The position numbers were made by a program, and so were the translations under genes. From the NCBI RefSeq assembly GCF_017351175.1, contig NZ_JAFMPN010000010.1, positions 124,001 through 188,000 on the forward strand: a DNA stretch of 64,000 nt, in the 5' to 3' direction. This stretch comes from Desulfovibrio sp. Huiquan2017 (lineage in GTDB: Bacteria; Desulfobacterota; Desulfovibrionia; Desulfovibrionales; Desulfovibrionaceae). Numbering within the stretch: the first letter of the stretch is position 1; each line of letters begins with the position of its first letter. The notes under the pieces were generated by a model. That model was not told the DNA's origin. It searched no databases and saw only the letters and a list, made by a program, of their open reading frames with translations. Positions 10,736 through 14,744 of this stretch are shown in pieces.

Positions 10736-11953
10736 TTACTTTTCGGCCCTGATCTTGTCGTTGGCGGCCTTGAGCGTCTCGCTCAGGACGTCGATGTCCA
10801 CGGGCTTGTGCAGATAGGCGAAGGCGCCCAACTCCATGCACACCTTGCGGTCCGCCTCCGAGCCGTGCCCGGTCAAAATGATGACCTCGATGTTCGGATG
10901 CTCGCCCTTGACGCGGCGCAGGACCTCGATGCCGTCGATGCCGGGCATCTTCAGATCGAGGATCATGACCTCGGGTTCGTCGTCGCGCACCAGGTCCAGG
11001 GCGGATTCGCCATCGTAAACCACGGCCGAACCCATGTCACGCATCATCAGCCGCTCGGACAGGGTCTGGACGAATTCACGCTCATCGTCCACGAGCAGGA
11101 CTTTGGAAGGGACCTCGAAGTCCATTTTGCGGTAGATGTCGGTCTGGTGGAAGCCCTTGCCCACCTGGGCCTCCACGGCCAGGACGCCGTCCACGCCCGA
11201 GACGATGGACTTCAGCTCGCGTTCCAGCTTCTCCAACAGGAGCACGTGCTTGTTGATGGTCAGGGTGACGGTGCCCTTGTGGGCCGAGACCTGGACGCTG
11301 TGACCCTCCTTGGCGAGCACGGTCTCCACCTTGGCGGCGAGCAGGAAATCCTGCACGGCCGCGCGGGTCTTGTCCGTAACCTGGACCGCGGCATTGCCGA
11401 GCTGTTCGACGATGAGGTCTGCGCAACGATCCATGCCGGTCGAGGCCACGGGCAGGACCAGATCGTAGAGGGTGCCGGACCACGGATCGTCAACGTCGCG
11501 CAGAGCCTTGACCCAGGCGGCACGGTCCTCGTCGTCCTTGCGGATGAGCTTCAGGGCGTGTTTCTCGGCGAAGCCCTCTTCGCGTTCGGCTACGCCCACG
11601 CGCGCCTTCATGTCGGAAATAAGACAGACCTTGAGGATATGGCCGATGGCCGGGTCGGGCAATTGCGAGGCGAACCCGGGGATAACCAGGGTATCGTCCT
11701 CGACCAGCCGCTTGGCCACGGCCAGGCGCATCCAGGCGATGGCCTGCTCCTTTTCATGACTGAAGGAATTGAAGACCGAGGTCTTGGCCTGGAAGGCCCG
11801 GGCGATGCGGTCCTCGGCCATGCCCGACAGCCTGGCGGCGTCGGCCACGATCTCCTGATCGGTAACGAGGCGGCAGTTCGTGGCGTCCACGACGCGCTTG
11901 ACCACCACTCCGGCTTCGCAAAACAATCCGTTGAAAACGGTAATGACTGACAT
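10736..11953 (-). CDS. Cytidylate-kinase-like / BON / receiver fusion protein
   Basis: 405 residues with an unusual layout. Residues 1-200 resemble the cytidylate-kinase-like (Cytidylate_kin2) family: an ITVFNGLFCEAGVVVKRVVD opening, a TDQEI strand, and HALKLIRKDDEDRAAWVK near 132-149. The glycine-rich nucleotide loop is eroded (NGLFCEAG). Residues about 205-267 look like a BON domain (QVSAHKGTVTLTI, VDGVLAVEAQV). Residues 284-405 are a full receiver with D289/D290, phospho-acceptor D333, T361 and K383. The receiver probably controls or reads out the N-terminal module. Kinase activity is doubtful given the degraded loop; nucleotide sensing is possible. It lies between the SulP and sensor kinase genes, 21 bases from each. 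Confidence 0.75.
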   Translation of the reverse strand: MSVITVFNGLFCEAGVVVKRVVDATNCRLVTDQEIVADAARLSGMAEDRIARAFQAKTSVFNSFSHEKEQAIAWMRLAVAKRLVEDDTLVIPGFASQLPDPAIGHILKVCLISDMKARVGVAEREEGFAEKHALKLIRKDDEDRAAWVKALRDVDDPWSGTLYDLVLPVASTGMDRCADLIVEQLGNAAVQVTDKTRAAVQDFLLAAKVETVLAKEGHSVQVSAHKGTVTLTINKHVLLLEKLERELKSIVSGVDGVLAVEAQVGKGFHQTDIYRKMDFEVPSKVLLVDDEREFVQTLSERLMMRDMGSAVVYDGESALDLVRDDEPEVMILDLKMPGIDGIEVLRRVKGEHPNIEVIILTGHGSEADRKVCMELGAFAYLHKPVDIDVLSETLKAANDKIRAEK

Positions 11954-14118: not shown

Positions 14119-14700
14119 TTACGCCTGCAACATCCTGCGACACGCCCGCATCAACTCGTTGAACAGCGCGCCCGCATCGTACAGGTTGTAGTTTTTGAAC
14201 CGAACCAGACCATCAGCCATCGTGAACAGAATGAGCGCCGATTTCCTGGGTTGGACCTCCTGGCTGATGGAACCATCCTCCAGCCCCGTCACGATGGCCT
14301 TCTCGAAGATGTCCACGAGGCAATTGTAGATATCTTCAAGGTTCCCCCTGAACTCCGGGTTGGACTCGGAGAACTGGTAGAGAATGTGACGGTGCAACAG
14401 CAGGAACTTGTCTTCCATCAGGCCCGCCAGATAGAGATAGAATGAAATGACCTCCTCCGTCATCTCAAGACCGGACTTGAACGGCCTGTTCTCAAAGAAC
14501 CGTTCGAACTGGTCCACTATCTCATCCCTGGTCTGCTCCAGGATCGCCAGCAACAACCCTTCTTTGGTCTTGAAATGATAGAAGATGGTCCCCTCGGCCA
14601 CCCCGGTGAGGCGGGCGAGTTCCTGCCCGGACGTGTCCGTGAACCCCTTGTGCGCGAACATGAACGTGGCGGCCTTGAGGATGGATTCCTTCTTCTTCAT
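14119..14700 (-). CDS. TetR family transcriptional regulator
   Basis: 193 residues. The N-terminal helix-turn-helix is clear (ESILKAATFMFAHKGF, then DTSGQELARLTGVAEGTIFYHFKTKEGLL split by the turn), followed by an all-helical ligand domain with no recognisable ligand. ATG 14700 gives the usual family start; a GTG 13 codons upstream is the alternative. It is the first gene of the leftward operon, and its stop overlaps a possible SulP start (TAATG). Two matching palindromes upstream make autoregulation of the whole operon likely. Confidence 0.92.
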   Translation of the reverse strand: MKKKESILKAATFMFAHKGFTDTSGQELARLTGVAEGTIFYHFKTKEGLLLAILEQTRDEIVDQFERFFENRPFKSGLEMTEEVISFYLYLAGLMEDKFLLLHRHILYQFSESNPEFRGNLEDIYNCLVDIFEKAIVTGLEDGSISQEVQPRKSALILFTMADGLVRFKNYNLYDAGALFNELMRACRRMLQA

Positions 14701-14726
14701 GCCTTTGATCCTTTTTTCCCAAGCGT

Positions 14727-14744
14727 ACCGAGTGTTCACTCAGT
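14727..14744. promoter_or_regulatory. TetR operator candidate O1
   Basis: ACCGAGTG-TT-CACTCAGT, an inverted repeat with one mismatch, covering about +1 to +18 of the predicted transcript. Its core GAGTGTTCACTC matches the TGAGT-N4-ACTCA pattern of the upstream site at 14793. Binding here would block transcription start of the TetR gene and everything behind it. Confidence 0.6.

Follow-up and report, generated by a model that had tools for sequence, protein, structure and literature searches.

The protein CKR of Desulfovibrio sp. Huiquan2017 is a two-component response regulator with an intact receiver (acid pocket, Asp, Thr/Ser and Lys), fused to a half that combines a domain of the Cytidylate_kin2 fold, in which the P-loop is lost, with a BON-like domain; its gene belongs to a conserved operon, and several transporter families are associated with this type of protein. 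The link of CKR to sulfate-type transport is well supported, and CKR probably helps to control anion uptake, most likely that of sulfate. The window, that is, the whole stretch of DNA analysed here, comprises 64,000 nucleotides, and its relevant features are collected in Table 1. A preliminary description of this DNA had claimed a three-domain fusion: an open reading frame of 405 aa does occupy the position indicated there, and its architecture recurs across the phylum. The fusion is genuine and a bigger matter than first noted; the first reading was incomplete, in that the operon with its SulP transporter and likely phosphorelay went unmentioned.

Architecture and predicted structure of CKR

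The receiver is the most easily recognised part of the protein. Residues 285-394 match Response_reg (Pfam; E 2e-27, 96 bits vs. a cut-off of 30.2), D333 lies within the motif LDLKMPG, and the residues D289, D290, D333, T361 and K383 are invariant in the 27 aligned fused proteins (27/27). In a structure search with the predicted model, the receiver matched solved receivers with Z values from 19.8 to 22.6. The phosphorylatable receiver with D333 as acceptor, as initially proposed, is thus borne out.

Table 1. Features of CKR and of the surrounding operon in the window (positions on the forward strand).
Feature	Position	Strand	Basis
TetR-family regulator, first operon gene	14119..14739	(-)	Pfam TetR_N, E 2.6e-13
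Long SulP transporter with STAS, 722 aa	11975..14143	(-)	Pfam Sulfate_transp, E 6.7e-101; STAS, E 4.9e-16; NCBIfam sulP above cut-off
CKR, Cytidylate_kin2 - BON-like - receiver fusion, 405 aa	10736..11953	(-)	ATG start
Cytidylate_kin2-fold domain, residues 1-191	11381..11953	(-)	Pfam PF13189 and model vs. 3fdi/3hdt
Degenerate P-loop NGLFCEAG, residues 8-15	11909..11932	(-)	Sequence; alignment columns of fused and unfused relatives
BON-like domain, residues 194-264	11162..11374	(-)	Predicted fold order; weak DolP/OsmY profile match
Receiver domain, residues 283-402	10748..11107	(-)	Pfam and structure matches
Phospho-acceptor D333 codon	10955..10957	(-)	Invariant receiver residues in aligned fused proteins
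dCache sensor histidine kinase, 580 aa	8972..10714	(-)	Pfam dCache_1, HisKA and HATPase_c above cut-off
REC2, receiver-only, 116 aa	8620..8970	(-)	Pfam Response_reg, no output domain
H-box histidine-kinase-like protein without recognisable ATPase domain, candidate phosphotransferase, 216 aa	7953..8603	(-)	HisKA below cut-off, no HATPase_c
REC3, receiver-only, 142 aa	7491..7919	(-)	Pfam Response_reg above cut-off, no output domain

Residues 4-167 match Cytidylate_kin2 (PF13189; E 1.8e-14, 54.8 bits vs. a gathering cut-off of 28), and the same match is obtained at E<=0.1 in 37/37 aligned family members. The full-length model (mean pLDDT 85) has low confidence at residues 270-282, which link the BON-like part and the receiver. 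Since structure searches with this model mostly returned receivers, residues 1-282 were modelled (AlphaFold2, mean pLDDT 92.3) and searched separately. The kinase part of this second model superimposes on 3fdi (Z 19.4, 160 residues, 1.8 A) and 3hdt (Z 19.3, 164 residues, 2.1 A), two entries that the family profile also retrieves from the PDB (E 5.5e-10 and 7.1e-11, respectively); the best true CMP kinase, 7l4a, ranks below both of them (Z 12.8). The cytidylate-kinase-like fold that had been put forward is consequently upheld by Pfam and by the model alike. APS kinase was considered as a special structural relative and dropped, its Z of about 11 being the same as that of many P-loop kinases. 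CKR and the solved members of Cytidylate_kin2 share the fold and the sequence family, and a strict Walker A is likewise missing from the solved sequences in the alignment; CKR differs from them in that a BON-like domain and a receiver are fused to it and in that the P-loop glycine and basic residue are further lost.

The BON fold is defined by the order helix-strand-strand-helix-strand, and this is the order predicted for residues 194-264 within the 1-282 model. At the sequence level, the Pfam BON model (PF04972) matches residues 202-232 under its cut-off (E 0.045, 14.5 bits vs. 27), a BON match at E<=0.1 is found in 7/37 aligned family members, and the family profile gives weak matches at this part to DolP/YraP (E 0.004) and OsmY (E 0.009). 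The domain is called BON-like here, as first claimed; it is not a Pfam-grade BON assignment.

Regarding the output of this regulator, Pfam finds no known response-regulator output domain in the N-terminal part, nor any output domain beyond the kinase-BON half and the receiver. Likewise, NCBIfam (E up to 0.001) returns nothing for the first 282 residues of a CKR orthologue (L036), and two unfused relatives score under the cut-off of its CMP-kinase model. The design is as unusual as it had seemed at first: the 1-282 model contains a kinase fold, and this part matches no known output domain in Pfam or NCBIfam. Response regulators with an unusual output domain are a known kind; the kinase-BON variant and its tie to a transporter were not found described. 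In particular, a full-text literature search returned no description of a CKR-type response regulator tied to a transporter in sulfate reducers, and in the part of PMC7806268 considered here, its table of BON architectures, the kinase-BON type is not among the twelve main clusters.

Two readings were discarded: (i) a chance open reading frame, since congeners keep the full-length protein (74-93% identity in 20 genomes, 61% in a further one) and its architecture is shared by genomes across the phylum; and (ii) a DNA-binding regulator, CKR having no such domain according to Pfam.

P-loop, distribution and ancestry

The strict Walker A pattern GxxxxGK[ST] is absent from 82/82 fused proteins and from 53/53 unfused relatives (a set that excludes L025, a receiver-poor paralogue). 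The unfused relatives mostly keep an SRGSYSxGK-type loop, and the two groups diverge at several positions: (i) position 14 is Gly in 53/53 unfused vs. 16/82 fused proteins; (ii) position 15 is Lys or Arg in 46/53 unfused proteins and mostly lost in the fused ones; (iii) the relaxed pattern G.[YF]..G[KR] is found in 39/53 unfused vs. 1/82 fused proteins; (iv) position 110 is Arg in 53/53 unfused proteins and Cys in 66/82 fused ones; and (v) Arg at 144 occurs in 46/53 unfused vs. 30/82 fused proteins. Other residues of the fold are retained by the fused proteins, namely G93 (81/82), R118 (82/82), D141 (77/82), W147 (76/82) and D164 (82/82). The loss of the P-loop glycines first noted in the motif NGLFCEAG is real, with the addition that part of the P-loop loss predates the fusion, as the strict Walker A is absent from fused and unfused proteins alike. 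Judging by these alignments, the parent kinase-BON family is itself unusual at the P-loop. A plain CMP kinase was rejected, since the relatives of CKR lack a Walker A; CKR itself has none at residues 8-15.

A profile of the kinase-BON half matches 224/395 genomes of the phylum at E<=0.001, the weaker matches of which may be Cytidylate_kin2 proteins without BON, and the half also occurs without a receiver in the same phylum. With the full-length fused profile, 51 genomes pass the threshold of E 1e-60; leaving out two partial rows (G139, receiver end only; G130, kinase part only), the complete Cytidylate_kin2-BON-receiver architecture is found in 49/395 genomes, with a total of 51 rows (two each in G124 and G125, and including a copy in G222 cut by a contig end). 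None of the 16 genomes sampled from other genera of the window's family has the fusion. A scan of named genomes with search patterns derived from the receiver gave at least 80 loci, of which at least 24 match nearly the whole query and the remainder only the receiver end; among the full matches are Desulfobacterota, LCP-89, Electryonea (Electryoneota) and Zixibacteria, as well as bins labelled Myxococcota, Caldilineae and Proteobacteria.

In a tree of 136 kinase-BON regions, built by a quick method with a midpoint root, weak branches near the root and three long-branched rows, 53 unfused proteins lie behind one branch with a support of 100 and one other lies outside. The split between fused and unfused proteins needs two changes on this tree, one of them a subsequent loss: L025, from the window's genus, has shed most of its receiver. 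Several recent fusions are thereby ruled out, within the bounds of a quick tree with a midpoint root. The receiver-less Cytidylate_kin2-BON proteins resemble CKR over its first ~270 residues and differ from it in having no receiver and in mostly keeping the SRGSYSxGK-type loop. As far as the tree and the alignments indicate, CKR is an old and conserved protein with a receiver-less sister group, and no one-off fusion.

A paralogue with two BON-like repeats and a pseudo-receiver (its acid pocket is lost in the alignment) was also encountered, at L021 4402-5898 in the window's own genome and at L022 3130-4938, L023 3150-4691 and L024 3274-4788 in three congeners, where it stands beside a short SulP; in L025, most of the receiver of this paralogue is gone.

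Operon and transporter neighbours

All the genes of the window operon lie on the minus strand in the order TetR, SulP, CKR, dCache kinase, REC2, H-box protein and REC3; neighbouring genes are 1 to 33 nt apart, except that tetR and sulP overlap by 25 nt. The same order is found in close relatives and across much of the phylum sample, with some exceptions: L071 and L072 have a different gene order, the dCache kinase was not seen in L076, and the loci of LCP-89 and Electryonea keep the operon order but without TetR. The H-box protein carries its His in 20/20 aligned homologues, and ATPase motifs are absent from them by eye. An H-box without an ATPase domain is the make-up of phosphotransferases such as Spo0B or ChpT. 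With such a protein, devoid of a recognisable ATPase domain, in the operon, a phosphorelay is likely and the two-component genes form a candidate chain.

This operon is similar to a SulP cluster with two-component genes and a TetR, widespread in Desulfobacteraceae and also present in Dv. salexigens, which is described in the portion of PMC11887813 (Sci Adv 2025) considered here: both have a SulP, a TetR, a sensor kinase with a cache domain and response regulators. According to that same portion, the cluster regulators are of the WalR type and would control promoters, a part of the cluster in taking up sulfate is proposed, and so is formation of the transporters in response to sulfate sensing; the word 'cytidylate' does not occur in the main text. 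By contrast with the WalR type described there, the three response regulators of the window operon are CKR and two receiver-only proteins, all without a DNA-binding domain. Pfam searches at E up to 1 give no winged-helix (WalR/OmpR-type) output domain in CKR, REC2 or REC3, and, within the window operon, no DNA-binding match in proteins other than TetR.

The SulP of the window has an AYYGLY motif and an unmatched gap at ~239-374 between matched stretches. Group Ci, as outlined in the part of PMC5840216 consulted, consists of long SulP proteins (~710 aa) that carry an insertion and whose PXYGLY motif mostly contains an Ala or a Ser; with its 722 aa, its motif and its gap, the window SulP fits this group by these features only. 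The same part of PMC5840216 leaves it unclear which of these SulP proteins carry sulfate and, in consequence, sulfate is a presumed substrate of the window SulP. High accumulation has been reported solely at sulfate concentrations under about 1 mM, a hint that sulfate uptake is regulated (PMC5840216).

Of the 51 fused rows, 45 were analysed with their flanking sequences (L068-L086 and L168-L193); the other six are the copy in the window, itself accompanied by SulP, and the copies of G080, G107, G217, G222 and G398. Two loci (L083 and L170) are at contig ends, leaving 43 assessable fused loci. In 33/43, the gene immediately upstream, in the same orientation and no more than 210 nt away, is a SulP; a DASS gene lies 1.2-1.5 kb downstream in 4/43; and a TauE/SafE gene about 3.5 kb downstream, within the cluster, in 2/43. 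No SulP, DASS, CitMHS or TauE was found within 5 kb at 4/43 (L184, L187, L189 and L191). In addition, four order-level genomes have a CitMHS+TrkA_C transporter 19-345 nt from CKR (L029 8744, assigned by BLAST only, L030, L031 and L032). These figures, of which those for DASS, CitMHS and TauE carry an ascertainment bias because the queries were taken from neighbours of the kinase-BON family, are non-independent associations, since gene order is inherited. As a control, the same transporter queries matched one open reading frame (L245) in 20 arbitrary 20-kb stretches, chosen at round coordinates in 12 sampled genomes.

Among 54 receiver-less kinase-BON genes, a sample drawn mostly from the best-scoring rows of the profile list, 24 adjoin any of the four transporter types and 30 none; the neighbour is a CitMHS+TrkA_C in 18 (nine tandem pairs), a TauE in 4 and a SulP in 2. 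SulP, DASS/CitMHS and TauE/SafE are mutually unrelated transporter families, and hence the association with transporters probably arose more than once.

Several further features of these neighbourhoods were recorded:
(i) The tandem receiver-less pairs stand directly downstream of CitMHS+TrkA_C (L068 15614-17299, L087 6551-8230, L198, L207, L208, L213, L214, L217 and L220); the second copies have a more degraded loop in those aligned, and a receiver gene and a histidine kinase adjoin the pairs of L068 and L087, the two loci viewed in detail.
(ii) Receiver-less kinase-BON genes adjoin TauE/SafE in L197, L205 and L211 (Pfam for L197 and L211 only) and, in L196 3696-5588 and L199 4318-5418, have a neighbour that by eye resembles an NRAMP-type metal transporter.
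(iii) At L187 8926-9972, a phosphonate-type ABC binding protein (Phosphonate-bd) is encoded ~1.5 kb upstream of the fused gene.
(iv) An 884-aa PPDK_N and PEP-utilizer protein is encoded at L029 2714-5365, just upstream of a fused gene, and proteins resembling it by eye are nearby in L110 and L191.

Within the genus, 22/25 genomes have CKR, and it is these same 22 that have a close SulP (E<=1e-100), so that both are jointly present or absent in 25/25. The members without CKR and without the close SulP are G003, G016 and G008; the last is discounted, since the genome is 82% complete and relatives of the downstream genes, a close H-box protein among them, are still there on a short contig, and G003 and G016 are the good cases. 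At the level of the order, CKR is missing from two genomes that do encode a long SulP, G036 and G040; this transporter can, therefore, do without it. As for sulfate reduction itself, dsrA (TIGR02064, E up to 1e-60) is present in 195/395 genomes of the phylum: in 48/49 CKR carriers, G080 being the sole exception, vs. 147/346 non-carriers (Fisher p 2e-15, a value that ignores shared ancestry and comes from lists compared by eye). CKR is dispensable for sulfate reduction, since 15/16 genomes from other genera of the same family, all without the fusion, have dsrA.

Mode of action and significance

The reading that we prefer, to which we would grant a little less than even chances, is that CKR is the end-point of a phosphorelay in a sulfate-type transporter operon and tunes uptake by protein contact; binding to DNA and phosphorylation of CMP would play no part in this. 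The dCache kinase would sense an outside signal, perhaps sulfate, and phosphorylate one or both receiver-only proteins; the H-box protein without ATPase would then hand the phosphate on to D333 of CKR, in the manner of Spo0B or ChpT. Phosphorylation of D333 would alter the contacts open to the Cytidylate_kin2-BON half, which would most likely be a pseudokinase adaptor that might still sense a nucleotide, and which may bind the neighbouring transporter or its STAS domain, thus setting its activity. The action of CKR on transport, the protein contact, sulfate as the substrate and the direction of phosphate flow are all four elements that we infer.

Partial models for such a scheme exist. The Spo0F-Spo0B-Spo0A and CckA-ChpT relays consist of a kinase, a receiver-only protein, an ATPase-less histidine phosphotransferase and a final regulator; CKR, as a final regulator, would depart from them in having no DNA-binding domain. 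GlnK is a cytosolic, nucleotide-linked regulator encoded beside AmtB, the transporter that it controls by contact. The likeness of this pair to CKR and SulP is one of analogy only, since the folds are unrelated and GlnK has no aspartyl phosphate.

The relay could instead control transcription, with phosphorylated CKR binding or releasing the TetR repressor or another regulator, that is, acting as an anti-repressor that sets SulP production. In favour of this route, TetR is encoded in the operon, as its first gene; it accompanies SulP and CKR in many relatives, a TetR-like open reading frame (by eye) stands just upstream of CKR in L182, a locus without SulP, and transcriptional control of such clusters is proposed in the part of PMC11887813 considered. 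We nevertheless hold it to be unlikely: that part also reports the SulP transporter as constitutively formed, and no TetR relative is near CKR in L029-L032, in L101, L105 and L106, in LCP-89 (L099) and Electryonea (L100), or in five loci that do have SulP (L071, L072, L081, L085 and L086); among the DASS loci, L109 is the exception, with a weak TetR match about 3.3 kb off.

Rather improbable, too, is the proposal that the kinase half is a sensor instead of an output, which would bind a nucleotide such as ATP, AMP or APS and tune the gain or loss of the receiver phosphate, thereby reporting on the energy or sulfate-activation state. CKR has no further output domain, and its nucleotide-kinase fold keeps G93, R118, D141, W147 and D164 in most of the 82 fused proteins; in the fused group, however, the P-loop glycine and Arg 110 are lost, Arg 144 is often missing too, and the similarity to APS kinase is no higher than that to many other P-loop kinases. 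Finally, that CKR is a working nucleotide kinase, its active site rebuilt and its activity gated by the receiver, is very hard to sustain, since, for all the preserved fold and some nearly invariant pocket-type residues, the strict Walker A is missing throughout the fused proteins, the orthologue's first 282 residues match nothing in NCBIfam, and the two unfused relatives stay under the cut-off of the CMP-kinase model.

Returning to protein contact as the preferred mode of action, a broader scheme can be sketched, which we hold to be less likely than not: Cytidylate_kin2-BON may be a transporter-control module for at least three unrelated families, to which a receiver would have been fused once in sulfate reducers, giving a response regulator that gates sulfate-type uptake directly via a dead nucleotide kinase.

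CKR would represent a type of response-regulator output that was not found described in the literature searched, and its presence in the window operon conflicts with the idea of regulators acting solely at promoters. Sulfate reduction begins with the uptake of sulfate. For the regulation of this step there are so far proposals, to judge from the part of PMC11887813 considered, and CKR is a conserved and testable candidate switch for it.
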